From Halogranum amylolyticum (lineage in GTDB: Archaea; Halobacteriota; Halobacteria; Halobacteriales; Haloferacaceae), in contig NZ_FODV01000010.1 of assembly GCF_900110465.1 (NCBI RefSeq), positions 62,001 through 126,000 on the forward strand: a stretch of DNA of 64,000 nt, written 5' to 3'. Position 1 is the stretch's first letter, and each line of letters starts with the position of its first letter. The notes below the pieces were generated by a model that was not told where the DNA came from, ran no database searches, and saw nothing but the letters and a program-made list of their open reading frames with translations. Shown piece after piece: positions 28,765-55,990 of this stretch. A program made the position numbers and the translations under genes.

Positions 28765-29436
28765 ATGGGTCTAGATTTCGTCACGGTACTGTTCGATAGC
28801 CCATTTGCTGTTATGAATACGATTGGCTTGATTGCATTCGCACTCGTTGGATCAGCCAAGGCGATCCGTGAGGAGTTCGACCTCTTCGGGATTACTGTCG
28901 TTGGACTGGCAATGGCATTTGCTGGTGGGGCTACACGAGACCTCCTCGTAAATCGAGTTCCATTAGTACTTCAGTCGCCAGTCGAAGTAAGCTTAGGACT
29001 GCTTGGAGTCGGCTTAGCAGTTGCGTTGAGTGTCGTATTGAGATCTCCAGAGAATCATCCAATTACTCTTGTCGCAGATGCTATCGGTCTCGCTGCCTTC
29101 ACTACAGCCGGTGCCATCGTAGCAACCGAGGCCACTGTGTCAGTATTTGGAGTCGTTGTTATCGGGACAATCAATGCCGTAGGTGGTGGGGCGTTTGCAG
29201 ATATTCTTCTTGATCGATCTCCGTTCATCCTCTTTGATGATTTCTATGCGAGTTGTGCAGTGTTAGGTGGAAGTGCATATTGGATAATGGGAAGTGTAGG
29301 AGCAACTGGAAGTACCGCTGCCGGGGTATGTGCAGCAGTGACCGTTGTGGCGCGGTTAGTCGCAGTTACTTACAGCTGGAATCTCCCAACAGTACAGACA
29401 TTAGGAGTCTTGAGCGAGCGAATGGATGACCAATAA
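28765..29436 (+). CDS. UPF0126/TRIC-type membrane protein (glycine transporter domain family)
   Basis: A 223 aa protein with about seven membrane helices and the twofold repeat of the UPF0126 family: GLIAFALVGSAKAI and FAGGATRDLL in the first half, GLAAFTTAGA and VGGGAFADILLDRSPFIL in the second. The domain is named glycine transporter in Pfam and is related to TRIC cation channels. The presence of a full glycine cleavage system 20 kb away makes a glycine link interesting, though unproven. Confidence 0.85.
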   Translation: MGLDFVTVLFDSPFAVMNTIGLIAFALVGSAKAIREEFDLFGITVVGLAMAFAGGATRDLLVNRVPLVLQSPVEVSLGLLGVGLAVALSVVLRSPENHPITLVADAIGLAAFTTAGAIVATEATVSVFGVVVIGTINAVGGGAFADILLDRSPFILFDDFYASCAVLGGSAYWIMGSVGATGSTAAGVCAAVTVVARLVAVTYSWNLPTVQTLGVLSERMDDQ

Positions 29437-37444: not shown

Positions 37445-38239
37445 ATGGACGTCTTCAGTAGCGAAACGCCGATTATCGGAATGGTTCACTTGCCGGCACT
37501 TCCGGGCGCACCCGGTTACGATGAGGATCGAAGCGCGATTCGTGAGCGTCTTTTACAAGACGCTACTGCACTCGAAGCAGGCGGTGTCGACGGTATCATG
37601 CTCGAGAACTTCGGTGACACTCCGTTCTATCCAGACCGTGTTCCTCGACACGTCGTTGCCGATATTACTGCACTTGCTGAAACACTCAGCAATCAAGTAT
37701 CGGTCCCCTTTGGAGTAAACATCCTTAGAAACGACGTGCAGAGCGCACTCGGTATCGCCGCTGCGACGGGGGGTACGTTCGTCCGTGTGAACGTACATAC
37801 AGGTGCGCGTCTCACCGATCAGGGGATCATCGAGGGAATGGCCCACGAGACGCTGCGGCTTCGCGATCGACTGGATACCGATGTTGCCATCCTCGCCGAT
37901 ATCGACGTGAAACACTCCGCTGCGCTTGCTGAACGTACTCTCGAGGAAACCTTCGGCGATTTAATCGAGCGTGGCGGTGCCGACGCCGTCGTCGTGAGCG
38001 GGACGGGCACCGGCGCGACCGTTGATACGACGGTTCTCGATCGAGTAGTCGAGTGTCGTGATGACCACGGGTTTGACGTCCCAGTCTTGATTGGGAGCGG
38101 GGTCACACCGGAGACGGCATCCGATCTGCTCTCGGTCGCCGACGGCGCGATTGTCGGAACGGCACTGAAACGCGACAGAAGAACGACCGCTCCAGTCGAC
38201 GAAGCGGCGGTCGAACGCCTCGTCGCGTCTATCCATTAG
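37445..38239 (+). CDS. BtpA/SgcQ family TIM-barrel protein
   Basis: A 264 aa protein of the BtpA family. IIGMVHLPALPGAPGY at the N-terminus, then GVDGIMLENFGDTPF, FGVNILRNDVQSALGIAAATGGTFVRVNVHTGA, and SGTGTGA with a late VLIGSGVTPET phosphate-binding loop are diagnostic. The barrel loops suggest a phosphorylated sugar or nucleotide ligand. Bacterial relatives affect photosystem I or sit in sugar operons; haloarchaeal function is not known. It is tail to tail with a PfkB kinase and its last 4 nt overlap that gene's end, suggesting a functional pair. Confidence 0.88.
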   Translation: MDVFSSETPIIGMVHLPALPGAPGYDEDRSAIRERLLQDATALEAGGVDGIMLENFGDTPFYPDRVPRHVVADITALAETLSNQVSVPFGVNILRNDVQSALGIAAATGGTFVRVNVHTGARLTDQGIIEGMAHETLRLRDRLDTDVAILADIDVKHSAALAERTLEETFGDLIERGGADAVVVSGTGTGATVDTTVLDRVVECRDDHGFDVPVLIGSGVTPETASDLLSVADGAIVGTALKRDRRTTAPVDEAAVERLVASIH

Positions 38240-39165
38240 TACTCGTCAATGAGTGCTTGAACGCTGGTTTCATCGGGAAGACAGCCGCAAGCACCCTCAG
38301 CACTGCAATTAAGCGCAGCGACGCCAGCAGCGAACCGTCCCGCATCTGCTGGAGAAGCCTCACCAAGTACCCATGCATGGATGAGTCCTGCAGTGAATGC
38401 ATCGCCCGCGCCCGTCGTGTCCGCAACTGGGACAGGAATAGCTGAGATATCGACTGTTGTATCACCATCGAGAAGAACTGCTCCCTCGTCCCCACGAGTG
38501 ACGGCCGCACGCGGGAGAGATCGCTGTCTGAGAGCGGCGATAGTATCTTCGAAATCCTCACCAAAATATGAGCGAGCAGCCACCTCACCGACTACGAACA
38601 GGTCAGCAACTGAGAGCACTCGGTCGATAGTTTCCGGAGTTGTGCCACGTCCCTCGAGTTCCGAGAGTGGTCCTGCGAGGTCGAACACGAGGTGTGCAAT
38701 CTCACCACGCTCCCGAGCCGCCACGAGCTCGGTGACGACTGCGTCAGGAGCATAAGCGCTGCTGAAAACGACGTTCGCGTCGGTGAGATATTCTCCGTCG
38801 GTGGTATCAAGCTGAAGTTGTGGCACACTCTGCCCGCCAGCAACGATCATCTTTTCTCCGGTAGGGCCCCGCAAGATTAGCGTATACGAGGACTCTTCCG
38901 AACCGGAGCGAACCTGGGTGACGTCCAGACCGCGCGTTCGCAACGTGGTTTTGATTTCTTCGGTGGCATCCTCTCCGAGACGCGTGACAATCCCGACGTC
39001 ACGGTCGAGCGCGGCGAGTCCAGAGCCAACGTTTGCTGCGACGCCACCGACAGTAGTGGTATAGTCGTGGACGAACGCCCCGCCATCTGGTTTCGGTAGG
39101 TTTGAAAGCGTGTAAACATGGTCGATAAGAGCGCTTCCAACCGTAACGACATCCAGTGAAGCCAT
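38236..39165 (-). CDS. PfkB/ribokinase family sugar kinase
   Basis: A 309 aa kinase. Substrate side: GSALIDHVYTLSNLPKPDGG and the GGVAANVGSGLAALD glycine motif. Catalytic side: DTTGAGDAFTAGLIHAW with the catalytic aspartate. Members phosphorylate ribose, nucleosides, fructose or related sugars. Its pairing with the BtpA gene suggests it makes the phosphorylated ligand of that protein. Substrate unknown. Confidence 0.9.
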   Translation of the reverse strand: MASLDVVTVGSALIDHVYTLSNLPKPDGGAFVHDYTTTVGGVAANVGSGLAALDRDVGIVTRLGEDATEEIKTTLRTRGLDVTQVRSGSEESSYTLILRGPTGEKMIVAGGQSVPQLQLDTTDGEYLTDANVVFSSAYAPDAVVTELVAARERGEIAHLVFDLAGPLSELEGRGTTPETIDRVLSVADLFVVGEVAARSYFGEDFEDTIAALRQRSLPRAAVTRGDEGAVLLDGDTTVDISAIPVPVADTTGAGDAFTAGLIHAWVLGEASPADAGRFAAGVAALNCSAEGACGCLPDETSVQALIDEY

Positions 39166-40125: not shown

Positions 40126-41391
40126 TTAGGAGAGCAGTTCGAGTGCTGTCTGGGAAAGTACCGACACTCCGATTGAAAGGCTTTCTTCGTCGATATCGAA
40201 CGTGGGGGTGTGGTGTCCACTGGGGTTACTGCCACCGATACCGATGTACGTTCCTTTTCCTCCATTTTCAACGACTGCTTTCAGTAGATACGTAACATCC
40301 TCACTGGCTCCTAAGTTATCACGTCGGAGAACTGTGGAAGTACTATCAATACTCTCTGCGACGTCACTCACGAGACTGACCAACTCTTCATCGCAATCTT
40401 GCCGAATCGATTCTCCGATAAGCGAGGCCTCCACAGTACATTCGTGGAGATCCGCAGCCGAATTAAGGCACCGATAGACGGCATCACGCATATACTCCAT
40501 CAGTTCGGTCGATTCCCCACGAACCTCCGCATTGGCGGTCGCTCGATGGGCAATCACATTAGCGGGATTCTCGGAGTGGATGTTCCCGACGTTCACCCGC
40601 GTTGAACCCTCTTTGTGCCGAGGAATCCCATACATGTCATTCGCAGCGGTCACTAACGCTTGTACTGCGTTCCGACCATCGTTAGGTGCGAACCCAGCAT
40701 GCGCAGACTCTCCTTCGAAAATAATATCGAACCGAGATAGAGCGAGTGCCCCGTCGAGTCCCGCAACAACGGTCCCTGTTGGGTAATCAAGTCCAATATG
40801 AGCACCGATCAGATACTCTACGTCGTCAATATGTGGTCCTGCAGCCATCGGTTTTCCGCCGCCGAGGAGTTCCTCAGAAGGTTGGAAGAATACCTTGAAC
40901 GTTCCGCTAAAATCACTTTCCAAAACCGCCCTAAGCGTACCTAGACCAAATGTGATATGCGCATCGTGCCCACAAGCATGCATGAACCCGACGTTATTTG
41001 ACCGGAATCCCTTGGCCGCCGGTGTATGTTTGCTGTCACGTGACTCTTCAATCGGAAGTGCATCGATATCAACGCGAAGCCCGATAGTAGGTCCCTCACC
41101 GCGATCGACGACTGCAACGGCACCCGTATTTCCTCCTTCGATGTGCGTTAAAATATCCATCCGGTCGGTTTCGGATTTCGCTTTTTCGAACCACTGTGAG
41201 AGTTCCTCCTCGTCCGGAACGCCTAATCGCTCGGTGGTTTCCAACGCGTCGGGGCCTACGTGTATCTCATCCACTCCGAGACGTTCAAGTTCTTCGACGA
41301 TGCTCACCGTGGTTAGGAATTCACACCATCCCGGCTCCGGGTACTGATGGAACTGTCGTCGCAGCTCAACCAAATCCATCTCCTCTGGCAT
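40126..41391 (-). CDS. M20-family amidohydrolase, AbgA-like (p-aminobenzoyl-glutamate hydrolase type)
   Basis: A 421 aa dizinc amidohydrolase. Metal motifs are MHACGHDAH (137-145) and PSEE (171-174), with HHTPTFDIDEE near the C-terminus. The N-terminal half follows AbgA closely: YPEPGWCEF, the RLGVPDEEEL segment and an acidic-Lys stretch before IEGGNTGAVAVV. These parts separate AbgA from ordinary hippurate or acyl-amino acid hydrolases. AbgA releases p-aminobenzoate and glutamate from a folate breakdown product. A TATA box lies about 30 nt before ATG 41391, though the two transport genes lie just upstream on the same strand. Confidence 0.82.
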   Translation of the reverse strand: MPEEMDLVELRRQFHQYPEPGWCEFLTTVSIVEELERLGVDEIHVGPDALETTERLGVPDEEELSQWFEKAKSETDRMDILTHIEGGNTGAVAVVDRGEGPTIGLRVDIDALPIEESRDSKHTPAAKGFRSNNVGFMHACGHDAHITFGLGTLRAVLESDFSGTFKVFFQPSEELLGGGKPMAAGPHIDDVEYLIGAHIGLDYPTGTVVAGLDGALALSRFDIIFEGESAHAGFAPNDGRNAVQALVTAANDMYGIPRHKEGSTRVNVGNIHSENPANVIAHRATANAEVRGESTELMEYMRDAVYRCLNSAADLHECTVEASLIGESIRQDCDEELVSLVSDVAESIDSTSTVLRRDNLGASEDVTYLLKAVVENGGKGTYIGIGGSNPSGHHTPTFDIDEESLSIGVSVLSQTALELLS

Positions 41392-41477
41392 ATCTAAACT
41401 AATATCGATATCCCATATATTAGTTATCGATGTAATCGGATATATTCTAATTGAAAGATATCACAACATGGATTCCT

Positions 41478-42245
41478 TTACTCGTCTGACGAACTGATCA
41501 TACCTCTCTCCCACATCGCCCGCGCAACGTACATCGTTCCGAATACAGAGGCTATTATTACGGCGTACAGCGGAAGGCCCGGAAGGAACGAGAGCAGGCC
41601 GAAGTCCATCAACAGCGTCATGACCAGTGCAATTGTAAACCCTACACCCGCGAGCTTTGGATAATCTCTTCCGAACTGTGCGAATATCGCACCGAATACG
41701 GAGGGGACGAGATAGGAGTCGAGTGCATTTTGCCACAGCTCTGGAAGTGCTTGGAAGACGGAGACGAGGGCAACTGCGCCCACTGCTAATATCGTGATAT
41801 TCACAGCTATCGATGCAGAGATCGCTATTGTCGAAATCAAACTACCCTGTGGCGTGCCGGGTTCTACGTCGGCACTCTCTTGGGCAGCGGCGGCACATGG
41901 CAGCCGAAGGTTCGAGATGTTCCCAGACAAGAAAGCCATGTACGTACCCGGAATCCCCAAAACGGGGTAGTAAGATACCGGTTCGACGATCCAAAAGATC
42001 CCGAATGTGGCGACTACCGATACAAACGCCCCAGTGATCGCTCCCACTGGAGGAACGATCTCGAAAACTGTGAGCAAGACTAGCGCAGGTCCCAAAGATA
42101 GTGCTACCGCAAGCAGGTTGGTCCGTCGTCCCCACTTATTGATATACGGGATGAACCGATTTTGGTAGATGCTTTTGTCCTGTGCTGCCTCCTCTACTAC
42201 TTCGCTGGCGTCAATCGTATCGTGCTGTTGTTGTTGTTCAGACAT
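41478..42245 (-). CDS. Membrane protein, partner of the DUF5058-like transporter
   Basis: A 255 aa protein with about six hydrophobic helices after a hydrophilic N-terminus rich in Gln. The loop GIPGTYMAFLSGNISNLRLPCAAAAQ between helices and the GTPQGSLISTIAISASIAVNITIL segment look like a substrate-binding pair of re-entrant loops. It starts one base after the stop of the preceding membrane gene and ends 86 nt before the AbgA-like gene. The two membrane proteins probably form one transporter for the amidohydrolase substrate. The family function is unknown. Confidence 0.75.
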   Translation of the reverse strand: MSEQQQQHDTIDASEVVEEAAQDKSIYQNRFIPYINKWGRRTNLLAVALSLGPALVLLTVFEIVPPVGAITGAFVSVVATFGIFWIVEPVSYYPVLGIPGTYMAFLSGNISNLRLPCAAAAQESADVEPGTPQGSLISTIAISASIAVNITILAVGAVALVSVFQALPELWQNALDSYLVPSVFGAIFAQFGRDYPKLAGVGFTIALVMTLLMDFGLLSFLPGLPLYAVIIASVFGTMYVARAMWERGMISSSDE

Positions 42246-42246
42246 A

Positions 42247-42996
42247 CTACCACAAACTTCCAATCGATAATTGAATAATGATTCCGACGGCTAAACCAAC
42301 TACCATTGCAATTCCTAACGCCCACTCTCTGATCCACTGTACATCTTTTTTATCTGCGACTTGTAACAGCCCAAGCATCGCCAAACCACCAGCGGCTACA
42401 GATCCAGTTTCCGGGGTACCGGCCGTCACCTCTCCTGTGAGGAAATAAGCGAAGGCCCCGAGCATAGCCGCCGAACTGATAATCGGGATGAGTTTTTCTT
42501 TCCCGCCCCCGATCCTTTGTCTCACCTTCTCCATGTGCGGGGTGCCTAGTGCCGAGACCAATAGCCAGCCTGTTCCACCAAGAGTCATTGACCATACTGC
42601 GGTTGCGTACGCTTGTTCGGAGATGCCGTCATCACCCAAACTGTAGCCGAATTGAGAGACACCGAGTTCGGCAGCCGGTAACTCGAATGCTACTGATCCA
42701 ATCACAGAGAGTCGCATCCACGCGACTGGACCACCTACGGTTGCAATCAGAGCGAGCATACCGGCTAAAACAGCTACAGCAGGGCCAATAGCCGAGATCA
42801 CTCCCGTTTTGAGCCCGGTTTTTAACTGTTCATCTGACAGTCCCATCTCGTTCCCGTTTTTCCACGCACGCTGGAGGAACAGCCCAGCTTGTAATAGGAC
42901 AACTAGTACTACCGGTACCGTTGCAAGCCATAGCCAAGTGCTATTGGCAATGTCCATATAAATCGGCACCGTCGCTATTGTTTGGTATCCGACCAT
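42247..42996 (-). CDS. DUF5058-like membrane protein
   Basis: A 249 aa protein with about six to seven membrane helices: NSTWLWLATVPVVLVVLLQAGLFL, ISAIGPAVAVLAGMLALIATVGGPVAWMRLSVIGSV, and a C-terminal pair. From memory this matches the DUF5058 family, of unknown function, often placed next to a second membrane protein and a peptidase. ATG 42996 is chosen over 43020 because a TTTATAG box lies 26-32 nt upstream. It is first in the operon that ends with the AbgA-like amidohydrolase. Confidence 0.75.
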   Translation of the reverse strand: MVGYQTIATVPIYMDIANSTWLWLATVPVVLVVLLQAGLFLQRAWKNGNEMGLSDEQLKTGLKTGVISAIGPAVAVLAGMLALIATVGGPVAWMRLSVIGSVAFELPAAELGVSQFGYSLGDDGISEQAYATAVWSMTLGGTGWLLVSALGTPHMEKVRQRIGGGKEKLIPIISSAAMLGAFAYFLTGEVTAGTPETGSVAAGGLAMLGLLQVADKKDVQWIREWALGIAMVVGLAVGIIIQLSIGSLW

Positions 42997-43761: not shown

Positions 43762-44139
43762 TCAGAGACTCGCTATGGCCTCAATCTCGATGTCAACGCC
43801 TTTCGGGAGATTAGCGACTTCGACAGCGCTTCGGGCAGGTGGAGAATCGTCGAAGAAACCACTATAGACTTCGTTCATCTCATCGAAATCATCGATATCG
43901 TTGAGATAGACTGTCATTTTAAGTACATCTTCGAGTGTGCCCCCTTCCGAATCGAGTATGGCCACGATGTTGTCAAAAACTTGTTCGGTCTGTTCGGCGA
44001 TACTCGCTTCGGCCAGTAATTCCCCATCTGCCGTCATCGGGATTTGACCCGATGTAAACAGAATCTCTTCGTTCGTCGTCGCTTGACTGTAGGCTCCGAC
44101 TGCAGAGGGTGCTTCGGCTGTTTGGATAACGCGCATCAT
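43762..44139 (-). CDS. ridA: RidA family reactive-imine deaminase
   Basis: A 125 aa YjgF/RidA protein with the family marks AVGAYSQA (13-20), FTSGQIP (28-34), R103 in PPARSAVEV and the final glutamates E118/E120. RidA hydrolyses 2-aminoacrylate and related imines formed by PLP enzymes such as threonine/serine ammonia-lyase. Such an enzyme (ilvA) is encoded 4 kb away, and glycine/serine enzymes follow, so this gene fits the amino acid island. It is divergent from lipA. Confidence 0.92.
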   Translation of the reverse strand: MMRVIQTAEAPSAVGAYSQATTNEEILFTSGQIPMTADGELLAEASIAEQTEQVFDNIVAILDSEGGTLEDVLKMTVYLNDIDDFDEMNEVYSGFFDDSPPARSAVEVANLPKGVDIEIEAIASL

Positions 44140-44264
44140 TTGGTCCAGTTGCTCGAATACACATAAAATTTCCTGCAGATGTCGATTCAGATGCAGAAAA
44201 AGAAAAGCTAGGAACCGATTGAGCCCACCCGCAAGCTTATCACGATTCGACGATAGATTCCGGT

Positions 44265-45197
44265 ATGACCGGTAGGCGAAAGCCCGACTGGCTCAAGATG
44301 CGTCCGCCATCTGGTCAGCGCTTCACCGAAATAAAGCAGAATCTTCGGAGTCGTAATCTCCATACAGTCTGTGAGGAGGCTAACTGCCCGAATCTTGGGG
44401 AGTGCTGGAGTGGACGCGAGGGGCCGGGAACGGCGACGTTCATGCTGATGGGAAATCGTTGTTCAAGAGGTTGCAACTTCTGTGACGTCCAGACTGGAGG
44501 CATGGAACCACTTGATCCGAACGAACCCGCGAACGTGGCAGAGGCGGTCTCCGAGATTGGCTTGGATTACGTCGTCTTGACCTCCGTTGACCGAGATGAT
44601 TTAGCTGACGGGGGGTCGGCTCACTTCGCCGAGACAATTCGAGAGATTAAAACACGTGATTCCAGTATCCTCGTCGAGGTACTTACCCCGGATTTCCAAG
44701 GGTCCCCGGATGCAGTTCAGCGGATTCTCGACGCGGGCCCTGATGTATTTGCTCATAACATAGAGACAGTAGAGCGTCTTCAATGGCCGGTTCGAGACCG
44801 TCGCGCGGGTTACGAACAGACTCTCGACGTTCTTCAGCAAGCAAGTGAAGAGTCCGACGTATACACGAAAACGAGCCTCATGCTCGGTCTCGGCGAGTAC
44901 CATCACGAGGTCTATCAGACGCTCTCTGACCTGCGCGAAGTCGGCGTCGATATCGTCACGTTCGGTCAGTATCTTCAACCCTCACGTTCACACATAGATG
45001 TGTTCGAGTATGTCCACCCCGACGCATTCGAAACATGGCGCGAGGTCGCAGAAAAAGAAATGAACTTTCTGTACTGTGCCTCGGGGCCAATGGTTCGCTC
45101 GTCCTACAGAGCGGGTGAACTCTTCGTTGATGCACTGCTCCGAGACGGCAGGAGTGTCGAACAAGCACGAAAGCAGGCACGTGTCAGCAGCGATTGA
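44265..45197 (+). CDS. lipA: Lipoyl synthase
   Basis: A 310 aa radical SAM enzyme that inserts two sulfurs into an octanoyl-lysine of lipoyl domains such as GcvH. Both iron-sulfur sites are in place: C36, C41 and C47 for the auxiliary cluster, C66, C70 and C73 for the SAM cluster (CSRGCNFC). The C-terminal RSSYRAGE serine ligand motif is also present. It lies in a glycine cleavage island, so it very likely serves GcvH. No LipB is seen in the window; the lipoate ligase nearby may supply the octanoyl or lipoyl group. Confidence 0.95.
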   Translation: MTGRRKPDWLKMRPPSGQRFTEIKQNLRSRNLHTVCEEANCPNLGECWSGREGPGTATFMLMGNRCSRGCNFCDVQTGGMEPLDPNEPANVAEAVSEIGLDYVVLTSVDRDDLADGGSAHFAETIREIKTRDSSILVEVLTPDFQGSPDAVQRILDAGPDVFAHNIETVERLQWPVRDRRAGYEQTLDVLQQASEESDVYTKTSLMLGLGEYHHEVYQTLSDLREVGVDIVTFGQYLQPSRSHIDVFEYVHPDAFETWREVAEKEMNFLYCASGPMVRSSYRAGELFVDALLRDGRSVEQARKQARVSSD

Positions 45198-45514
45198 TGC
45201 CGCTATCCAACGAGATTGAATAGAACCACGATCATGTCCGAGTGGTAAACGAAAGAAGAGGAGAGAGGTACGGAGCGTCAGCAGAGTATCGTTGGTGTCT
45301 ACCGAAATGTACAAGATGGACCAAGTACAGCCACTCAGTATCTGTCGTGAAAGAGCCATCATAACGACTGATGTGTCCACAGACAAGGGGCATGCAGCAC
45401 GACAGATACTCGGAAGCGAAGTGGCCGAAAGATCAAAGCTAGCGAAAACCCACCAAACCTCACGTTTGCAGACCTCAGACAGAGCGTTCAACTAATTCAA
45501 GATAATGTCAAAAA
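45198..45514. other. Gap between lipA and the dihydrolipoamide dehydrogenase gene
   Basis: A 317 nt stretch on the same strand as both neighbours. A 67-codon frame overlaps most of it but shows no family features. It probably carries the promoter of the next gene. Confidence 0.35.
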
Positions 45515-46939
45515 ATGACAGCTGAAAATGATTCAATCGAAACAGATGTACTGGTTATCGGCGCAGGACCCGGAGGTTACGTCGCTGCTATTCGCGCCGC
45601 ACAACACGGTCTCGACGTAACTCTGGTCGAAAAAGACGCGTACGGCGGCGTCTGCCTCAATCATGGTTGTATTCCTTCGAAGGCCTATATCAGTGCCACA
45701 GACCTTGCGTACGAGGCGAGAGGAGCGTCGGAGATGGGGATTTTTGCAGACCCGACAATCGACATGGCGAAGATGCAAGAGTGGAAGTCGAACGTAACTA
45801 ACAAACTCACTGGTGCCGTCGAAAAACTCTGCAAGGCAAACGGGGTTACCCTCGTCGAAGGTCTGGCGTCGTTCGTCGACGAGAATGAAATACAAGTTAC
45901 GTCTGAGGGCAAAAAGTCGGGGCAGAGTTCGATCACGTTCGACCGCTGCGTTATCTCGACAGGGTCACGCCCAATTCAGATTCCAGGGTTCGACTTTGCA
46001 GACAGCAAAGTGTGGTCTTCACGGGATGCACTCGCGGCAGAATCGGTTCCAGACCGTCTCGTAGTTGTCGGAGCGGGCTACATCGGAATGGAACTCTCAA
46101 CCGTGTTTGCAAAGCTTGGAGCGGAAGTCGATGTCGTCGAGATGCTCGACGACGCCCTTCCTGCATATGAAGACGACATCACACGTGTCGTACGAAAACG
46201 TGCGAGCGAATTGGATATCGACTTCCACTTCGGTGAAGGTGCAACTGAATGGCGCGATACTGACGACGGTATGGAAGTCGTTACCGAAACCAAGGATGGA
46301 GAGGAATCAATCTATTCGGCGGATAGGGTCTTAGTCGCAGTCGGTCGTCAGCCTGTAACCGATACTCTCGGATTGAAGAATACCGGAGTAGAACTGAACG
46401 AGCAGGGGTTCATAGAGACCGATCGTCATGGGCGTACGTCCCTCGAACACGTCTTCGCTGTGGGTGACGTGGCTGGGGAGCCGATGCTTGCACATAAGGC
46501 CAGCAACGAAGGAATCATTGCAGCCACTGCCCTGGCAGAGAACTCACCCTCCAGTGGCACTCGGTCAATTCCTGCTGCGGTGTTCACGGACCCCGAGATA
46601 GGAACTGTCGGACTAACAGAACATGAAGCGGAACAGGAAGGCTACAATCCCATTGTTGGGAAGTTCCCCTTCAGAGCATCGGGGCGTGCACTAACGACCA
46701 GTGACACGGCCGGATTCGCCCGTCTTGTCGCTGATGGTGAGAGTGGAGCTATCCTCGGCGCACAAATCGTGGGCTCGGAAGCCTCAGAACTTGTTGCTGA
46801 AGTGGCGTTGGCTATCGATATGGAAGCGACGCTGAAGGACATCGCAACGACGGTTCACACACACCCGACGCTTTCAGAAGCAGTCATGGAGGCTGCCGAG
46901 AACGCACAGGGACACGCGATTCATACGCTGAATCGATAA
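45515..46939 (+). CDS. lpd: Dihydrolipoamide dehydrogenase
   Basis: A 474 aa FAD-disulfide oxidoreductase, the usual length. FAD motif GAGPGG (16-21), redox pair C47/C52 (GGVCLNHGCIPSKAYI), NAD motif VVGAGYIGMEL, and C-terminal HTHPTLSEA with the active-site His-Glu pair. It reoxidises dihydrolipoyl groups on GcvH (L-protein of glycine cleavage) and may serve other lipoyl complexes. It is next to lipA and convergent with the lipoate ligase gene. Confidence 0.95.
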   Translation: MTAENDSIETDVLVIGAGPGGYVAAIRAAQHGLDVTLVEKDAYGGVCLNHGCIPSKAYISATDLAYEARGASEMGIFADPTIDMAKMQEWKSNVTNKLTGAVEKLCKANGVTLVEGLASFVDENEIQVTSEGKKSGQSSITFDRCVISTGSRPIQIPGFDFADSKVWSSRDALAAESVPDRLVVVGAGYIGMELSTVFAKLGAEVDVVEMLDDALPAYEDDITRVVRKRASELDIDFHFGEGATEWRDTDDGMEVVTETKDGEESIYSADRVLVAVGRQPVTDTLGLKNTGVELNEQGFIETDRHGRTSLEHVFAVGDVAGEPMLAHKASNEGIIAATALAENSPSSGTRSIPAAVFTDPEIGTVGLTEHEAEQEGYNPIVGKFPFRASGRALTTSDTAGFARLVADGESGAILGAQIVGSEASELVAEVALAIDMEATLKDIATTVHTHPTLSEAVMEAAENAQGHAIHTLNR

Positions 46940-47067
46940 TTCGAACTTCGGTGAGAGAGCCGGAGCGAACTACGGCACACGACCGATAGTGTGAGAAAGC
47001 GTGAATATCAGAGACGAGTCCAGTGAACCCTTCGAATGAAACCTTCACGCCGTACGCGTAGACTCTG

Positions 47068-47880
47068 TCAGGGTTCGGGTGAACTCTTGTGAACCCACTC
47101 GTCGGCCTCATATTTTGCTGTACTGCGCTCTCGGGCCTGCTCCAGTTCACCGTCGGTCCAAGAACCCTCGGTCGCATCAACGAACGCTGCGAGTTCGGAT
47201 TCAAGTTCTGAAACGGCCTGCCCCCGACGTATGTCCACGAATTCGTCGATACCGACTACTCGTTTGTCGAATCTCTCATCCACCACATCTGGCTCGGAGA
47301 ACACCGCTAGGTGGTCTTCTGGGAGCGACGAGAAGGTGATCGAACCGTGTTGAATCACTGCATCGTTCTGTCGATATTGGGCATTGCCGGATATTTTCCG
47401 TCCCTGAGCGAGAATATCGTGGGCCGGATGGAGGTCCCGCAGATAGCACGCCGGGTGATAGATCGCTGGACGGGGTTCATCGGCGTAACCGGCGGGTATT
47501 CCGAGGTTTCTGAACATTTTGAGGACGGGTTTACAGAGCAAATGGTAACACTCCAAGAGGTCACCCGGGAGTTCGTCCTTCGGGGCGGTAATCGAGTAGG
47601 AGATGTCACCGACGTGATCGTGATAGATTCCACCACCACCGGTTTGACGTCGCGTCACGTCGATTTTTTCGCGTGAGCAGTAGTCCCAATCGACGGTAGT
47701 CGGATCTTGTCCATAACCCAACGAGAGACAGCTCGGCTCCCACTGATAGACTCGTACCGTCCTCGGCCCCCCTGATGCAGCTGTCTCTGCAGCAATCTCA
47801 TCAAGTGCCATATTCATCGGGCCCGACCGGGGCTCTTCTCGAATGAGTCGCCACTCGTACTCGGCCATGTCTGGCATCAC
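47068..47880 (-). CDS. Lipoate-protein ligase family protein
   Basis: A 270 aa member of the lipoate ligase/octanoyltransferase superfamily. RRQTGGGGIYHD (77-88) is the nucleotide-binding stretch and K162 in GRKISGNAQYR is the conserved lysine. The C-terminal domain of full-length ligases is absent or reduced. It attaches lipoate or octanoate to apo-GcvH. An AATTTTACC box about 27 nt upstream supports ATG 47880, with a later in-frame ATG at 47868 as alternative. Last of a run of minus-strand glycine metabolism genes. Confidence 0.88.
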   Translation of the reverse strand: MMPDMAEYEWRLIREEPRSGPMNMALDEIAAETAASGGPRTVRVYQWEPSCLSLGYGQDPTTVDWDYCSREKIDVTRRQTGGGGIYHDHVGDISYSITAPKDELPGDLLECYHLLCKPVLKMFRNLGIPAGYADEPRPAIYHPACYLRDLHPAHDILAQGRKISGNAQYRQNDAVIQHGSITFSSLPEDHLAVFSEPDVVDERFDKRVVGIDEFVDIRRGQAVSELESELAAFVDATEGSWTDGELEQARERSTAKYEADEWVHKSSPEP

Positions 47881-47992
47881 GCTTACTCCATGTCGGTAGG
47901 GTAAAATTGTTTGGTCAGTGTCGTCGTCAATACGGTGACAATAACAGTGGAATCAATGGGAAATCGGAAGAGAATCCTTCGCTGAATCGACG

Positions 47993-49240
47993 TTAGATAT
48001 CGTGACTCCCGACTGATTCCGGAGTGGGAACAACCCGCTTGATGGTATACCCGGCCTCCTTGATATCGGAGACGACTTGTCTCATCGCATTCTCACCAGG
48101 AGTCGTCGTTCGAATGACCAGGTCTGCCTTGCCGACGGGGAGTCCCTCCTCAGAGCGATCGTGGCGTACGCTCCGGATATTTGTATCGTGGCGACCGATA
48201 ATGTCCGCGATTTCCCCAAGAACTCCGGGGTGGTCGTCGATACGAACGTAAAGCGTAACGAACTGACGTCGATCGACGAGAGCTCGCGTGAGCATATCTT
48301 GAAGCGTTGCAATGTCTATGTTACCGCCACAGAGGAGCGGAACGACCGTTTCACTTCGGCAGTCGATCGCCCCCGAGAGAAGTGGCGCAACGGACGTCGC
48401 AGCGGCCCCTTCGACCATCTGTTTCGTGCGTTCCAACAGCCACAATGTTGCCTGCGCAATTTCGGTATCCGTAACCGTGACTACGTCGTCAACGTGGTTC
48501 TGAATGATCCCGAATGTGAGGTCTGAGATACCCCCCGTGGCGATTCCGTCGGCAATCGTGTCGGGAGTCTCATTCTCGACTGGGTGCCCTTTGTCGAGGC
48601 TTTGAGGGACCGTAGCAGCGGATTCGGCTTGAACACCGACAACGCGAATTGACTCGTCGTACGACTTCACCGCCGTTGCGATACCACTGATCAAGCCCCC
48701 ACCACCGATTGGGACGGTGAGAACGCTTAGGTCCGGCACTTGTTCGGTCAATTCGAGCCCAATCGTACCCTGACCAGCGACAACAGCGGGGTCATCATAT
48801 GCGTGAACGAACTCCGTGTTAGAATCGTTAGCGTACGACCGTGCAGCGTCCATCGCCTCGGCAAACGTCTTCCCTGTGAGCTCGACAGTTGCCCCGTACC
48901 CTTCCGTTGCATCCACTTTTGCCTGCGGAGCAGTCTCCGGCATAACGATGAGCGACTCGAGTCCGAGTTCGGTTGCAGCGAATGCGACACCCTGTGCATG
49001 GTTCCCTGCACTCGCGGCGACCACCCGGGTCGCGTCTCCTTGCGCTACTTGCGAAATTTTGTTGAATGCCCCACGGGGTTTAAACGACCCTGTTTTCTGG
49101 AAGTGTTCGTACTTGAACCAGACGTCAGCGTTCACTGCTCTGCCAAGCGTCGAACTCTCTTCGACAGGAGTCTGACGAATATCCGCTGATTGATCGAGAC
49201 GCTTTCTCGCACGCTCTATGTCTTCAATTGAGACGGTCAT
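47993..49240 (-). CDS. ilvA: Threonine ammonia-lyase with ACT domain
   Basis: A 415 aa PLP enzyme deaminating threonine (or serine) to 2-oxobutyrate (pyruvate). PLP lysine K54 lies in GSFKPRGA; SAGNHAQGVAFAA and VGGGGLISGIATA-like IGGGGLISGIA are the phosphate and glycine loops. The last about 85 residues form an ACT domain (VTLYVRIDDHPGVLGEIADIIG). That layout is the catabolic/biodegradative TdcB-like or short IlvA type. With RidA it would handle reactive imines. Located between glyA and lipoate ligase. Confidence 0.93.
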   Translation of the reverse strand: MTVSIEDIERARKRLDQSADIRQTPVEESSTLGRAVNADVWFKYEHFQKTGSFKPRGAFNKISQVAQGDATRVVAASAGNHAQGVAFAATELGLESLIVMPETAPQAKVDATEGYGATVELTGKTFAEAMDAARSYANDSNTEFVHAYDDPAVVAGQGTIGLELTEQVPDLSVLTVPIGGGGLISGIATAVKSYDESIRVVGVQAESAATVPQSLDKGHPVENETPDTIADGIATGGISDLTFGIIQNHVDDVVTVTDTEIAQATLWLLERTKQMVEGAAATSVAPLLSGAIDCRSETVVPLLCGGNIDIATLQDMLTRALVDRRQFVTLYVRIDDHPGVLGEIADIIGRHDTNIRSVRHDRSEEGLPVGKADLVIRTTTPGENAMRQVVSDIKEAGYTIKRVVPTPESVGSHDI

Positions 49241-49341: not shown

Positions 49342-50592
49342 TCAATCATAGATTGGATACTCTTCACATAGGCGATCAACTAACGATGAGACATCCTCGA
49401 TCACGTCTTGGTCCTCAGGGTGTTCGATGACGTCGACGATCGCGTGCCCGACAGTTTCCATCTCTGATTGCGTGAACCCACGAGTTGTGAGCGACGGTGT
49501 CCCAACTCGGATACCGCTGGTGGTGAAAGGCGATCGGGTCTCACCGGGAACAGTGTTCTTGTTGACAGTGATTCCTACGTTTTGAAGGTATTCTTCGGCG
49601 TCACTTCCAGTCACGTTTGGATGAGAGTCTCGCAGATCCGCGAGGACGTAGTGTTTGTCAGTACCTCCGCTCACGAGGGACAGCCCGTGTTCGGAAAAGG
49701 TGGTAGCTAAGGTTTCTGCGTTCGCTACTACCTGCTTAGCGTACTCAGTGAACTCGGGCGTCAGTGCTTCTTGGAATCCCACCGCTTTTCCAGCGATGTT
49801 GTGCATGAGCGGTCCACCCTGACTTCCGGGGAAGATAGATTTGTCAATCTGTTCAGAAAATTCATCCGACGTGAGAATTAATCCTCCTCGGCCTGCTCGG
49901 ATCGTCTTGTGAGTGCTTGCAGTGACGAAGTCTGCGTTGCTAATCGGATTCGTGTGTACACCGGCCGCGATGAGACCAGTAACGTGAGCAATATCCGCGA
50001 GGTGATACGCGTCGACGTCAGATGCGATTTCGTGGATACGCTCGTAGTCGAACTCCCGCGGATACGCCGACGCTCCACTGACGACGAGGTCGGGATCAAA
50101 TTCTGTAGCGTGTTCAGCCACCGACTCGTAATTTATGTATCCACTGTCAGGGTCAACGCCATACTGCTCAATATCGTAGAGTTGGCCGGAGAAGTTGACG
50201 TCGTGCCCGTGTGAGAGGTGTCCACCGTGAGTAAGGTCCAAGGACAGAATTCGGTCACCGGGATCGAGCATCGCGAAGTAGACACCCATATTCGCTTGCG
50301 TGCCACTGTGAGGTTGAACATTCGCGTGCTCTGCATCGAAGAGTTCTTTCGCACGGTCGATCGCCAACTGTTCGACAGTGTCGGCGTGCTCACAACCACC
50401 ATAGTATCGAGAGCCGGGATATCCTTCGGCGTACTTGTTCGTCAACACCGAACCCTGTGCTTCGAGAACCGCCTCCGAAACATGATTTTCCGACGCGATC
50501 AGCCCGAGACTCTCTTCCTGACGACGTCTCTCGTCTTGAACGGCAGCATAGACCGCTGGGTCAGTCTCCTCAAGGTGGTTACTACGAACCAT
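49342..50592 (-). CDS. glyA: Serine hydroxymethyltransferase
   Basis: A 416 aa PLP enzyme interconverting glycine and serine with methylene-tetrahydrofolate. The PLP lysine is K229 in TASTHKTIRAGRGG; LIASENHVS, YAEGYPGSRYYGG and HSGTQAN are diagnostic. ATG 50592 is chosen over 50607 for a normal N-terminus. It is 227 nt downstream of gcvPB, so probably has its own promoter while sharing the island. It turns the methylene group released by glycine cleavage into serine. Confidence 0.95.
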   Translation of the reverse strand: MVRSNHLEETDPAVYAAVQDERRRQEESLGLIASENHVSEAVLEAQGSVLTNKYAEGYPGSRYYGGCEHADTVEQLAIDRAKELFDAEHANVQPHSGTQANMGVYFAMLDPGDRILSLDLTHGGHLSHGHDVNFSGQLYDIEQYGVDPDSGYINYESVAEHATEFDPDLVVSGASAYPREFDYERIHEIASDVDAYHLADIAHVTGLIAAGVHTNPISNADFVTASTHKTIRAGRGGLILTSDEFSEQIDKSIFPGSQGGPLMHNIAGKAVGFQEALTPEFTEYAKQVVANAETLATTFSEHGLSLVSGGTDKHYVLADLRDSHPNVTGSDAEEYLQNVGITVNKNTVPGETRSPFTTSGIRVGTPSLTTRGFTQSEMETVGHAIVDVIEHPEDQDVIEDVSSLVDRLCEEYPIYD

Positions 50593-50819
50593 AGAACTCA
50601 CTTTCAATCGATACTATACAAATCGTTGTGAATAGGCAGTATTACCCTCTAAATTTGAATACAAACGTTACTCTCGCCGGCTACGCTCTACGGGACCCCA
50701 TTCGGTAGATGTCACGGAAAGACGCGAATCGACGGGAAGTCCCAACCGTATCTTACCGACCTCTAGGACGCGGATTTTATTCAGATAGCGGGGACGAGTA
50801 GAAGTTCAGAAACGGGAGA

Positions 50820-52247
50820 TCAATCCGAGATCTGGTGCCAGGACAGGACCGGATCTCGTGCGGCTTGCGTTTGATCTATGCGTTTCGCAGTGGTTTCGTT
50901 TGGTGCTGCCTCGATTGCGTCGTCACTCTGATCGAGTACCGCGTTGAAGGCCTCTGCCAATCGGTCCAACGTCGTTTTACTCTCGGCCTCTGTAGGCTCT
51001 GTCATCAGAGCTTCGTCGACGATGTCGGGCCACTTTGTTGTCGGAGGATGTACTCCATAATCTAACATTTTCTTCGCAAAGTCTGCAGCGTCCTTCTCAC
51101 CGGCACTTGCTACGAACTCGTGGTGGAACGGTTCGAACGGGACGTCCAACTCGAGCTGAGAGGCGAGATAGTTCGCGTTGAGGACTGCTTTCGCGCTCGT
51201 ATCGGACAAGCCTGAGTCACCGAGCCGAGAAATGTAAGCGTGTGTCTTGAGAAGAACGAGCCAGTTACCCATTCCTCCGTGGACCTTTCCGATAGATTCC
51301 TCGGGGGTTGTGAGAACATACTCTCCCTCCTCCTTTCTCACGTGGGGGTTCGGGAGAAACTTGTCAAGGCCTTCACGAACACCGATCGGTCCCGCCCCCG
51401 GACCTCCGCCGCCGTGGGGTGTGGCGAACGTTTTGTGAACGTTGTAGTGCATGATGTCGAACCCCATGTCACCTGGTCGAGCACGACCGAGAAGCGCGTT
51501 CAGGTTGGCACCATCGTAGTACAGGAGCCCTCCAGCCTCGTGGACCAGGTCCGCGATCTCCTCGATCTCTCGTTCGAACAGTCCGAGTGTGTTCGGATTG
51601 GTCAACATCAATGCTGCCGTCGACTCGCCTACTGCTGCAGAGAGGACATCGAGATCGACTCGTCCATCCTCGTCTGCCGGAAGCTCGACGATGTCGTACC
51701 CGGCCATCGCAGCGCTGGCAAAGTTCGTCCCGTGAGCACTAGAAGGAACGATGATTTCGTTTCGCTGTGCTGCTTCGCCGTTGTATTCGTGGTACGCTTT
51801 AGCGACCAAGATGCCAGTCAGCTCACCGGCTGCTCCAGCAGGAGGTTGGAGCGTTACTGCACTCATGCCCCCGATCTCTCCGAGATACTCTTGTAGCTCG
51901 TAGTAGATTTGTAGTGTCCCTTGGGCTGTTTCGGACGGACGGTCCAAGTGAACCGAGGCTGATGGAAGCGCAGCGATATCCTCGGTGAACTTCGGGTTGT
52001 ATTTCATCGTACAGGAGCCGAGTGGATACGGACCGCTGTCGACTCCGTAGTTCATCTGTGAGAGCCGCGTGTAGTGGCGTGCGATCTCTGGTTCTGAGAG
52101 GGAGGGCAACTTGATACTCTCGCGAGTCAGCTCGTCGGGTAGATACGTGTCCTGCAACTCATAGCGGGTCAGATCTTTTTCAGACAAGAGCGGTTCGTGA
52201 CCTTCAGATTCTGCATCGTCCCACTTTGCCTGTCGATGTCGTTGCAT
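50820..52247 (-). CDS. gcvPB: Glycine dehydrogenase (decarboxylating) subunit 2
   Basis: A 475 aa PLP-binding half of glycine decarboxylase (P-protein). The PLP lysine is K272 in NVHKTFATPHGGGGPGAGP. MNYGVDSGPYPLGSCTMKYNPK and PPAGAAGELTG are typical. It overlaps gcvPA by one base (TAATG). Split P-protein is usual in archaea and many Gram-positive bacteria. Last gene of the gcvT-gcvH-gcvPA-gcvPB operon. Confidence 0.96.
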   Translation of the reverse strand: MQRHRQAKWDDAESEGHEPLLSEKDLTRYELQDTYLPDELTRESIKLPSLSEPEIARHYTRLSQMNYGVDSGPYPLGSCTMKYNPKFTEDIAALPSASVHLDRPSETAQGTLQIYYELQEYLGEIGGMSAVTLQPPAGAAGELTGILVAKAYHEYNGEAAQRNEIIVPSSAHGTNFASAAMAGYDIVELPADEDGRVDLDVLSAAVGESTAALMLTNPNTLGLFEREIEEIADLVHEAGGLLYYDGANLNALLGRARPGDMGFDIMHYNVHKTFATPHGGGGPGAGPIGVREGLDKFLPNPHVRKEEGEYVLTTPEESIGKVHGGMGNWLVLLKTHAYISRLGDSGLSDTSAKAVLNANYLASQLELDVPFEPFHHEFVASAGEKDAADFAKKMLDYGVHPPTTKWPDIVDEALMTEPTEAESKTTLDRLAEAFNAVLDQSDDAIEAAPNETTAKRIDQTQAARDPVLSWHQISD

Positions 52248-53623
52248 TACTCCATCACCTCGCGGAAGCCTTCGATGAGGTCGTCAGTCCGATGCTCGTT
52301 CGTCTCAGTCACACAGATCTGTACGGTCTCTTCGTCCAGTTCGTGGATCGCAAACCCTTCTTCTACCATATTCGATACTACGTCAGTCGCATCGTCTTCG
52401 ATTGCTGCCGTGAACTCTCTAAAGTGGTACGCGTCGTTGACGGGGGCAGAGATCCCCTCGATTTGATCGAGTTCGGAGGCAACCCGCGCTGGTAAACGTG
52501 TACACTCGTCTGCCAGTGAAGCGAGTCCGTCTGGCCCTAAACAAGTCGCGTGGATTGCCGACCGAAGTGCAACCCAAGCTTGATTGCTGCAGATATTACT
52601 CGTTGCTCGCTCTCGTCGGATATGCTGTTCACGTGTCTGGAGAGTCAGCGTATACGCTCGGTCACCTGCACTGTCTCTCGAAGCACCGACCAATCGACCA
52701 GGCATCTGCCGAAGGAAATCGTCACGACAAGCAAAGATACCGATTCCCATTCCGTAGACAGAGGGTAGCCCAAGAGTTCCAGCGCTACCGACCACGATGT
52801 CAGCACCGATCTGACCAGGACTTTGGAGGAGCGACAGCGCGACCAGGTCGGATCCGATACACAGCAATGAATCTTCCCCGTCTAGAATCGACCCAATCTC
52901 CGTCAGGTGCTCTTCGATCACTCCCTCGGATGTGGGATTTTCGACGTATACGAGGAGAGTATCGTCATCAAGATACGACCGAAGCGTTCCAGGGCGGACC
53001 ATACCACCTTCAGTCGGGAGCTCTCGAATCGAAAGCTCCGATCCAGCGGTATAGTTTTCGAGAACGTCACGGCGTTCGGACCGAAGATAGTCGGGAACCA
53101 GGATTGTTGACCCGTCTGCGTCACGTACTCTGTCTGCAAGAGTCGCGGCCTCACCGAGGGCTGTCGCAGCGTCGTACATCGAACAGTTTGCCACGTCCAT
53201 CCCGGTCAACTCTGTGACGAGAGATTGGAACTCGAACAACACCTGTAGAAACCCCTGTGAAACCTCCGGCTGATACTGGGTGTACGAGGTGATGAACTCA
53301 GATCGGAGAGAGAGATGATCGACGACTGACGGGACGTAATGGGAGTAATGACCTCGACCGAGGAATTCAGTAACATCTGCGTTGTTGCCGAGGATACGTT
53401 GGAGTCGTTGCTTCACTGCTTGTTCGGATAACCCTTCGATTCCGAACTCACCCTCGAAACGAACGGAACTCGGGATATCGAAGAGCTCTTCGATATCCGT
53501 TACCCCAATTGCAGTTAGCATCCGACTGATATCGTCCTCGTCGTGGGGGGTGAATGGGCTTTCGTGGTTATCTGAACTGCTGTGCGTGGACTGTATATCA
53601 CGAGATTCCAAGCTGTCTTGCAT
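52247..53623 (-). CDS. gcvPA: Glycine dehydrogenase (decarboxylating) subunit 1
   Basis: A 458 aa partner half of the P-protein. ELFDIPSSVRF, GRGHYSHYVPSVVDHL, TSYTQYQPEVSQGFLQVLFEFQSLV and MYDAATALGEAA are the family blocks. It starts 2 nt after gcvH. It forms a heterotetramer with GcvPB; both are needed for glycine decarboxylation. Confidence 0.96.
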   Translation of the reverse strand: MQDSLESRDIQSTHSSSDNHESPFTPHDEDDISRMLTAIGVTDIEELFDIPSSVRFEGEFGIEGLSEQAVKQRLQRILGNNADVTEFLGRGHYSHYVPSVVDHLSLRSEFITSYTQYQPEVSQGFLQVLFEFQSLVTELTGMDVANCSMYDAATALGEAATLADRVRDADGSTILVPDYLRSERRDVLENYTAGSELSIRELPTEGGMVRPGTLRSYLDDDTLLVYVENPTSEGVIEEHLTEIGSILDGEDSLLCIGSDLVALSLLQSPGQIGADIVVGSAGTLGLPSVYGMGIGIFACRDDFLRQMPGRLVGASRDSAGDRAYTLTLQTREQHIRRERATSNICSNQAWVALRSAIHATCLGPDGLASLADECTRLPARVASELDQIEGISAPVNDAYHFREFTAAIEDDATDVVSNMVEEGFAIHELDEETVQICVTETNEHRTDDLIEGFREVME

Positions 53624-53625
53624 CG

Positions 53626-54006
53626 TTAGATCTGGTCTTCGTATTCACTAGCAGTTAGCAGGTGATCGATACCCGACTTTGGGTTGATTTCCAGTAGCCA
53701 CCCAGATCCGTGAGGATCGTCGTTGATCAACTCGGGCTTGTCAGCAATCTCACTATTGAGGTTCTCAACAGTACCAGAGACAGGGGAATAAATATCTGAC
53801 ACTGCCTTGATACTCTCGATAACTCCGAACTGATCGCCTTCGTCGAGTTCGTCCCCTACATCTGGGAGTTCTACAAAGACAATATCTCCGAGTTCGTCCT
53901 GAGCAAAGTCAGAGATTCCGATTCTGACGAGACCACCAGAGTCGGTTTCCTTTGCCCATTCGTGCGATTCTGCATACCGTCGGTCGTTTGGGATTTCGAA
54001 TGTCAT
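53626..54006 (-). CDS. gcvH: Glycine cleavage system H protein
   Basis: A 126 aa lipoyl carrier protein. The lipoyl-lysine is K67 in [25 protein letters not shown] and [22 protein letters not shown] precede it. It shuttles the aminomethyl group between P-, T- and L-proteins. LipA and the lipoate ligase encoded nearby would modify K67. It follows gcvT by 6 nt. Confidence 0.96.
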
Positions 54007-54012
54007 GTTGGA

Positions 54013-55119
54013 TTATTCGTTGTCGTTTGTGAGTGAACTGAGGAAGCGGTGATTGACAATCGTCGCCGGTACTGCACGACCCCGTATTTGTACCTCGACC
54101 GACTGGTTCTCGTCTGCCTTGTCGGAATCAACGTACGCGAGGGCGATTGGTTCGTTCAACGTCGGACTCATGGTGCCGCTTGTGACATGCCCAATAGACT
54201 CCCCTTCGTCAGTTACTTCGTATCCGTTGCGTGGGATTCCCCGCTCGTTCAGGTGTAGTCCGACAAGTTTCTCTTCGACGCCGTTCTCTTCGAGAGCTTT
54301 CAAGGCATCTTGGCCGACAAAGCGCGGCTTCGAGAGATCAACGACGAAGCTGAGCTTTGCCTCCAAGGGTGTTCGAGGCTCAGATTTCGGGTCAAAGTCC
54401 TGACCGGAGAGCAAGAGACCTGCCTCGAGTCGGAGCGTATCACGGGCCCCCAACCCACAGGCCGGAACATCACTGAACGACTTCCACATCTCTTCGGAGT
54501 CAGTCGTATCAAAGAAGATCTCGACCCCGTCTTCGCCCGTATAACCAGTCCTCGCAATTAGACACTCCACTCCTTCGATAGCGGTCTGCGCCATCGAAAA
54601 TCGTCCGAGGTCTGTGATGGAATCGCGTGAGCGGTTTTCAACGATCTCGATGGCATCTGGACCTTGGACGGCAACCAAACCCATCTCTTCGGTTTTGTTT
54701 TCGACGCTGACCTGAAGCCCTAACTGACGGGAATATTTCGACCATCGGTCGACCATCTGCTCTCCATGCCCAGCATTCGGAACGAATAGATAGGCGTTCT
54801 CGTCTGGGTAGCTATACACGACGGTATCGTCGATGATGATTCCGTCTTCGTTCAAGATGCACGAGTACTGTGCGTCACCTCTATCGAGGTCTCTGACATC
54901 GTTACTCGTGAGACGGTTCATCAGCTCCGTGGCGTCAGTACCGCTCACTTTGACTTCGCTCATATGGCTTACGTCAAAGATTCCAACTGAATCACGCACA
55001 GCAGCATGTTCTGTACTAATTGTATCGTACTTCACAGGCATCTCCCAGCCACCGAAGTCGGTGAACTCGGCGCCAGCATCGAGATGTGCCTGATAGAGTG
55101 GCGGCTTGCGCAAGGACAC
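54013..55119 (-). CDS. gcvT: Aminomethyltransferase, glycine cleavage T protein
   Basis: A 368 aa protein that releases ammonia and moves the methylene group to tetrahydrofolate. EFTDFGGWEMPVKY, VRDSVGIFDVSHMSEVKVSG, ARTGYTGEDGVEIFF and GARDTLRLEAGLLLSGQD are typical blocks. GTG is the start. A TATA-like CTTATGATA lies about 28 nt upstream and overlaps a repeated AAGTACT motif. First gene of the gcv operon. Confidence 0.95.
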   Translation of the reverse strand: MSLRKPPLYQAHLDAGAEFTDFGGWEMPVKYDTISTEHAAVRDSVGIFDVSHMSEVKVSGTDATELMNRLTSNDVRDLDRGDAQYSCILNEDGIIIDDTVVYSYPDENAYLFVPNAGHGEQMVDRWSKYSRQLGLQVSVENKTEEMGLVAVQGPDAIEIVENRSRDSITDLGRFSMAQTAIEGVECLIARTGYTGEDGVEIFFDTTDSEEMWKSFSDVPACGLGARDTLRLEAGLLLSGQDFDPKSEPRTPLEAKLSFVVDLSKPRFVGQDALKALEENGVEEKLVGLHLNERGIPRNGYEVTDEGESIGHVTSGTMSPTLNEPIALAYVDSDKADENQSVEVQIRGRAVPATIVNHRFLSSLTNDNE

Positions 55120-55237
55120 AAGTACTGTGTTTGACTGATATCATAAGTACTTTTCTGTGGGGACAGTTGGAACCTCAAACACTCGTGAGCTACCATTCAA
55201 GGGTGACCTTTATTGTATCTCAATCGTGTTTTCCAGT
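55120..55237. promoter_or_regulatory. Divergent gcvT-iclR promoter with AAGTACT repeats
   Basis: A 118 nt gap. AAGTACT occurs at 55120-55126, right against the gcvT start codon, and again at 55145-55151, overlapping the gcvT TATA region. Each has the palindromic core AGTACT, and they are 25 nt apart. On the other side a CTTTATTG box lies about 28 nt before the iclR start. The repeats are a good candidate operator for the IclR protein. Confidence 0.55.
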
Positions 55238-55990
55238 ATGGGAAAAGAGTCTCGGAAGACATCTAAAACGTCGCTCCTTACCATTGAAGCCATTCAGGAA
55301 TTAGAGAGCGCATCGTTGTCAGAAATATCTAATCATACCAACATTCCAGTCAGTACCTTACATACCCATCTACAGACCCTAGAGGAGATGGAATACATCA
55401 TTCGTGAAGATGGTGACTACAAACTCGGAATGAAGCTATTCCACCTCGGCGAAAAAGCCCGATGGCGAGACGATCGATACCAATTAGTGAAAGAAAAGGC
55501 CTGGGACTTAGCGAATCGAGTGGGTGAAGAAGTCAGTTTTGCGGTAGAAGAGAACAATCGGATGGTGATTATATTCGACGAAACGGCTACCCCTTCAGAT
55601 GAGGGATTTCAGGTTGGACGATATTTTGGGATTCATAGTTCCGCCTGTGGCAAAGCAGCATTGGCAGAGTTTTCGGAGAAACGGATTAACGATTTTGTCG
55701 AACAGACCAAACTCCCGGCCTACACAGACAACACAATCACCGACAAAGATGAACTGCTCTCTGAACTTGAGACTATTCGGGAACAGGGCTATGCCGTAAA
55801 CACTCAAGAGGAGCTAGAAGGGTTACGAGCCGTCGCAATCGCAATCAACGGACCCGACGGAAGTTTGTTTGGAACTTTAGATATATCCGGACCTCCATAC
55901 CGGCTCCCTGATGAAGAAGAAATGGCAAAACGACTTCAATTGGTAGTCGACGATATCGAGTCATCTCTGGCATCAGAAGTCCAGAGTTAG
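55238..55990 (+). CDS. IclR-family transcriptional regulator
   Basis: A 250 aa regulator. The winged-helix part covers about residues 12-70 (ASLSEISNHTNIPVSTLHTHLQTLEEMEYI). The ligand-binding domain follows, with GRYFGIHSSACGKAALAEF and a final GSLFGTLDISGPPYRLPDE that mark the effector pocket. ATG 55238 is chosen over 55157 because a TTTATTG box sits about 28 nt upstream. It is divergent from gcvT and probably controls the glycine cleavage operon; a small carboxylate effector is expected. Confidence 0.9.
   Translation: MGKESRKTSKTSLLTIEAIQELESASLSEISNHTNIPVSTLHTHLQTLEEMEYIIREDGDYKLGMKLFHLGEKARWRDDRYQLVKEKAWDLANRVGEEVSFAVEENNRMVIIFDETATPSDEGFQVGRYFGIHSSACGKAALAEFSEKRINDFVEQTKLPAYTDNTITDKDELLSELETIREQGYAVNTQEELEGLRAVAIAINGPDGSLFGTLDISGPPYRLPDEEEMAKRLQLVVDDIESSLASEVQS

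Follow-up and report, generated by a model that had tools for sequence, protein, structure and literature searches.

A predicted two-subunit transporter and an AbgA-type amidohydrolase beside a glycine-cleavage island in Halogranum amylolyticum

Results

A three-gene unit on the minus strand

We analysed a 64,000-nucleotide stretch of Halogranum amylolyticum contig NZ_FODV01000010.1 (hereafter the window), in which a DUF5058 gene, a second membrane protein gene and an M20 gene form one row on the minus strand. Coordinates bear out the layout described in an earlier note on this DNA: DUF5058 runs from an ATG at 42996 (alternative start at 43011) to a TAG stop at 42247, and the second membrane gene begins with an ATG at 42245, exactly 1 base past that stop, and ends with its own stop at 41478. 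An 86 bp gap separates the second membrane gene from the M20 gene, which may be transcribed separately from the membrane pair. The unit comprises:

42247..42996, minus strand: DUF5058 membrane protein, predicted first transporter subunit (PF16481; neighbour of the second-subunit gene at 87 of 91 loci)
41478..42245, minus strand: unnamed membrane protein, predicted second transporter subunit (conserved core YYPVLGIPGTYMAFLSGNISNLRLP)
40126..41391, minus strand: AbgA-type M20D amidohydrolase, predicted cytoplasmic (PF01546, TIGR01891, 3io1, metal site, tree)

The DUF5058 protein matched PF16481 at 258 bits (cut-off 28.2) across the entire profile (1-222 of 222), and its AlphaFold2 model was all-helical with a helix break at approximately residues 87-102 (mean pLDDT 82). 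The second membrane protein had no family match in Pfam or NCBIfam; its conserved core was read from an alignment of 42 relatives, and its predicted model was again all-helical (mean pLDDT 86). Neither subunit had a solved relative by sequence, and a PDB fold search of both models returned nothing significant, a search that used each subunit modelled singly and that a joint fold of the pair may escape.

The M20 enzyme exceeded the cut-offs for PF01546 and TIGR01891 (239.7 bits versus 153.75 for TIGR01891) and is AbgA-like, in agreement with the earlier note. Its closest solved structure was 3io1, an aminobenzoyl-glutamate utilization protein (281 bits versus 96 bits for the runner-up); it matched E. 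coli AbgA at 292 bits versus 20 bits for E. coli AbgB, and it grouped with E. coli AbgA in our tree with 84% support. The residues expected of an M20D metal site (C140, H142, E174, H198 and H394) and the base E173 are all intact. A hydrophobic stretch is absent from the N-terminus of the enzyme, whose substrate should therefore be intracellular. Two more AbgA-type enzymes are encoded in the source genome (L128, 6792-8066; L129, 6416-7717), one divergent from a Na+/H+-antiporter-family gene and the other overlapping a PLP-dependent gene that resembles threonine ammonia-lyase. This last paralogue is the nearest to the unit enzyme among relatives that do not belong to the unit's clade, and its neighbour keeps serine and threonine in play as products. 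The region just beyond the M20 gene (37445-39165) holds one gene of the BtpA family and one for a PfkB-family kinase, which are convergent with a 4 bp overlap.

A complete glycine-cleavage island

The unit adjoins a complete glycine-cleavage island (43762-55119) that starts no more than 1.3 kb away and that the earlier note overlooked. The island and associated genes in the window are:

43762..44139, minus strand: RidA-family protein (PF01042, TIGR00004; also in several haloarchaeal islands)
44265..45197, plus strand: lipoyl synthase lipA (Radical_SAM, LIAS_N)
45515..46939, plus strand: dihydrolipoyl dehydrogenase lpdA (PF07992, PF02852)
47068..47880, minus strand: lipoate-protein ligase-like gene, lplA (PF21948)
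47993..49240, minus strand: threonine ammonia-lyase, ilvA-type (TIGR01127, 433 bits, over cut-off)
49342..50601, minus strand: serine hydroxymethyltransferase glyA (PF00464, 513 bits)
50820..52247, minus strand: gcvPB, glycine dehydrogenase subunit 2 (GcvP2_C)
52247..53623, minus strand: gcvPA, glycine dehydrogenase subunit 1 (GDC-P, 360 bits)
53626..54006, minus strand: gcvH (GCV_H, 134 bits)
54013..55119, minus strand: gcvT (GCV_T, 260 bits)
55157..55990, plus strand: regulator of the IclR type adjoining gcvT, a candidate for control of the island (IclR_C, HTH_IclR)
28765..29436, plus strand: TRIC-type channel gene, Pfam 'Gly_transporter' (PF03458)

This gcv set is a second glycine cleavage system in the 5.2 Mb assembly; given the assembly's contamination rating of 10.8%, the other copy might in principle be of outside origin. 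We found gcv genes within about 10 kb of the unit in 13 of 20 haloarchaeal loci (12 when one locus with gcvPB cut at its edge is left out), with varying gene order and strand; the other seven have no gcv gene within 10 kb. Because the haloarchaeal membrane pairs form one clade in our tree, this linkage counts as one line of evidence rather than thirteen. The TRIC-family 'Gly_transporter' gene often lies right beside the unit in other haloarchaea.

Recurrence of the unit and its partner hydrolases

Using the second membrane protein alone as query, we scanned 84,980 bacterial and archaeal species genomes, obtained 198 relatives and kept the best 80, which together with plasmid loci and the window gave a set of 91 loci sampled by similarity, with the weakest relatives outside it. 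The three-gene order recurs in archaea and bacteria, indicating that the row is not due to chance: within this set 87 of the 91 loci have DUF5058 next to the second membrane gene, and 81 encode an M20D-type enzyme no farther than 4 kb away, which in 75 cases comes immediately after on the same strand. Each membrane protein had 12 matches among plasmid records, both in the same 12 records. DUF5058 is rare in this archaeal phylum, scoring over the cut-off in 4 of 393 sampled genomes, and our literature search found no paper naming it.

An AbgA-type enzyme lies directly downstream of the pair in 16 of the 20 haloarchaeal loci, and the bacterial partners are AbgB-type (47) or short M20D enzymes (10), the two types that prevail in Bacillota. 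The membrane pair of Natronococcus jeotgali nests among other Natronococcus pairs in our trees, yet its enzyme is AbgB-type: an enzyme swap. A second unit in this species (L043) looks broken: other sequence interrupts the second membrane gene, and the M20 gene is inverted. In C. difficile (L102-L105) the pair sits between an M19 dipeptidase gene and an amidohydrolase-superfamily gene that, by eye, resembles N-acyl-D-amino-acid deacylases, with a sigma-54-type activator nearby, and AstE/AspA-type and M28 genes occur near the pair in other loci. The M19 dipeptidase, amidohydrolase-superfamily, AstE/AspA-type and M28 families all cut amide or related C-N bonds, which speaks for amide-linked amino acids as the cargo of the membrane pair. 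The pairing of a transporter with a hydrolase is well supported.

Glycine riboswitches in bacterial relatives

Bacterial relatives provide a second, independent line of evidence for the glycine link. Of the 64 bacterial loci scanned, 8 have the glycine riboswitch RF00504 (50-61 bits, cut-off 32) immediately ahead of DUF5058. Among the 869 other genes of the scanned loci only 2 are preceded by one, gcvT being one of the two; near-identical loci count separately in this comparison. The riboswitch-bearing loci, from Lachnospiraceae and related Clostridia, fall into two groups in which DUF5058 is about 55% identical between groups and the downstream enzymes are of different types. Two of these loci also have neighbouring gcv genes, and in two Lachnospiraceae loci gcvT-H-PA-PB lies directly upstream of the unit. 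An Rfam search of window positions 24000-58000 gave no match and hence no RF00504. In Phascolarctobacterium (L047, 7933-8022) a glycine riboswitch precedes a binding-protein-like gene downstream of the unit. Taken with the haloarchaeal gcv linkage, we consider support for the glycine link of the unit to be good.

The DUF5058 leaders carry a terminator-like hairpin between the riboswitch and the DUF5058 ribosome-binding site, and in several of them the predicted minimum-energy structure has the aptamer region base-paired with the 5' arm of the terminator. These predicted folds suggest that glycine would turn the DUF5058 operon off, a response also reported for glycine importers (PMC11477304).

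Discussion

We propose, as a reading that is probably correct, that the unit is a scavenging module consisting of a two-subunit importer and a cytoplasmic M20D hydrolase that together release glycine, and possibly serine or threonine, for glycine cleavage. DUF5058 and the unnamed membrane protein would import a small amide-linked amino-acid compound, such as an N-acyl amino acid or a dipeptide, and the cytoplasmic AbgA-type enzyme is predicted to hydrolyse it. The freed amino acid would most likely be glycine, which the neighbouring glycine cleavage system would oxidise, with serine hydroxymethyltransferase and threonine ammonia-lyase at hand. We infer transport by the pair, its direction and the identity of its substrate. 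A carrier role, which the earlier note also suggested, is the natural reading because the pair is conserved with M20D hydrolases and the substrate is expected to be intracellular.

Alternatively, the pair could be a general importer that takes up dipeptides or N-acyl amino acids and owes its particular use to the adjacent hydrolase, with glycine one product of many. The diversity of partner hydrolases is consistent with this, as are the PucR-type regulators that stand in place of glycine riboswitches in many bacteria: most bacterial copies of the pair have no glycine riboswitch and 26 lie near a PucR-type regulator, so glycine is possibly not the product everywhere. However, no riboswitch class other than the glycine one turned up immediately ahead of DUF5058, and gcv genes accompany the majority of haloarchaeal copies. 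We regard a general importer as unlikely, although it merits serious consideration.

A narrower version of the scavenging module concerns aromatic conjugates. The window contains a predicted aromatic acid degradation cluster at 1422-19552, with PaaA/PaaC-like, PaaD-like, benzoate-CoA-ligase-family and enoyl-CoA hydratase genes and a branched-chain-amino-acid-type ABC transporter, as well as a cupin gene with a sub-cut-off resemblance to gentisate 1,2-dioxygenase (58407-59483) and a fumarylacetoacetate-hydrolase-family gene (62986-63858). Both the window and several other genomes have PaaA-type genes no more than about 40 kb from the unit. In Halorubrum salsamenti the unit is bordered on either side by homologous aromatic genes, and such genes occur within about 20 kb of it in two Halalkalicoccus, one Haloarcula and one Haloterrigena. 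One possible substrate is an aromatic acid conjugated to glycine, for instance hippurate. The pair might then be a new two-subunit transporter family that, in haloarchaea, imports glycine-conjugated aromatic acids (hippurate, phenylacetylglycine), which the M20 enzyme would split, passing glycine to glycine cleavage and the aromatic acid to the nearby benzoate-CoA-ligase/Paa-type cluster. Two unit-bearing genomes have no PaaA/PaaC match at all, so we put this link forward as a hypothesis, and a rather doubtful one.

The earlier note had suggested that the membrane proteins are a new carrier for p-aminobenzoyl-glutamate or a similar compound. Under this suggestion the pair would import p-aminobenzoyl-glutamate and the AbgA-type enzyme would cleave it, replacing AbgT and AbgB. 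The type of the enzyme fits, the same membrane pair precedes AbgB-type enzymes in Bacillota, and in the window a dihydropteroate synthase gene (folP) is located 13 kb from the unit. The matches of AbgB-type relatives extend to HmrA and Xaa-Arg dipeptidase, so an AbgB-type partner does not imply p-aminobenzoyl-glutamate. In E. coli the hydrolase is a heterotetramer of AbgA and AbgB (PMC5082436), whereas profile and sequence searches of this genome found neither AbgT nor AbgB, extending to the whole genome what the earlier note had seen locally: the best ABG_transport match scored 22.3 bits, below the cut-off of 27, on another contig, and AbgB matches were weak, reaching up to 28 bits at AbgA-type genes. 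Folate genes are not conserved neighbours, with folP near the unit in the window only, whereas the conserved signals are glycine genes and glycine riboswitches. The proposed carrier role is supported, whereas p-aminobenzoyl-glutamate as its cargo is not and seems improbable. Folate salvage was likewise rejected: although the window has folP and trpD close to the unit, and two Haloterrigena plasmids likewise have trpD there, neither gene is a generally conserved neighbour. These two genes share the interval 25315-28436 with a glycerol-1-phosphate dehydrogenase gene (25315-26397), which suggests that the contig belongs to the main chromosome.

Judged by its sequences, then, the unit is not an abg system. 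Like E. coli abgABT, it sets an M20D enzyme of the AbgA type alongside membrane genes dedicated to transport, but it differs in having no AbgT over cut-off, no AbgB, a transporter without detectable relation, and a glycine rather than a folate context. The Gate-family pair YjiH-YjiG offers a similar layout, in which the gene immediately after those for two small membrane proteins encodes a dipeptidase (IadA) or an M20/amidohydrolase, but has no detectable homology to the DUF5058 pair; despite the shared layout and a common LGIPG motif, hhalign probabilities were 0.1-5%, compared to 96% for YjiH versus YjiG as positive control, and we rejected this relationship. In C. difficile, a lysine riboswitch, a YfcC transporter and an M20D amidohydrolase form an operon (PMC11477304), which likewise unites an amino-acid riboswitch, a transporter and an M20D enzyme, although with lysine and a YfcC antiporter in place of glycine and the DUF5058 pair. 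Glycine riboswitches also govern membrane transport genes in the case of AGCS symporters (PMC11477304), which belong to another transporter family, whereas the DUF5058 pair is coupled to an amide hydrolase.

Finally, the pair could be an exporter beside glycine cleavage that eases an excess of glycine, or another amino acid, from peptide hydrolysis, and glycine riboswitches and glycine cleavage genes do also serve excess-glycine detoxification (PMC11477304), but this is very improbable, as the M20 substrate would then have no entry route in the unit, several predicted leader folds imply that glycine means off, as for importers, and the gcvT leaders in the same loci are laid out differently from the DUF5058 leaders.

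For haloarchaea, the scavenging module would mean that in several species a second glycine cleavage system sits with its own apparent glycine supply, and aromatic acyl-glycines, if they are the substrate, would supply both glycine cleavage and an aromatic pathway. DUF5058 and its partner are widespread, occurring in haloarchaea, gut Clostridia including C. difficile, Synergistota, Paracoccus and Arthrobacter, and are now annotated as 'DUF5058 family' and 'hypothetical protein'; the link to amide hydrolases and glycine would account for the pair.
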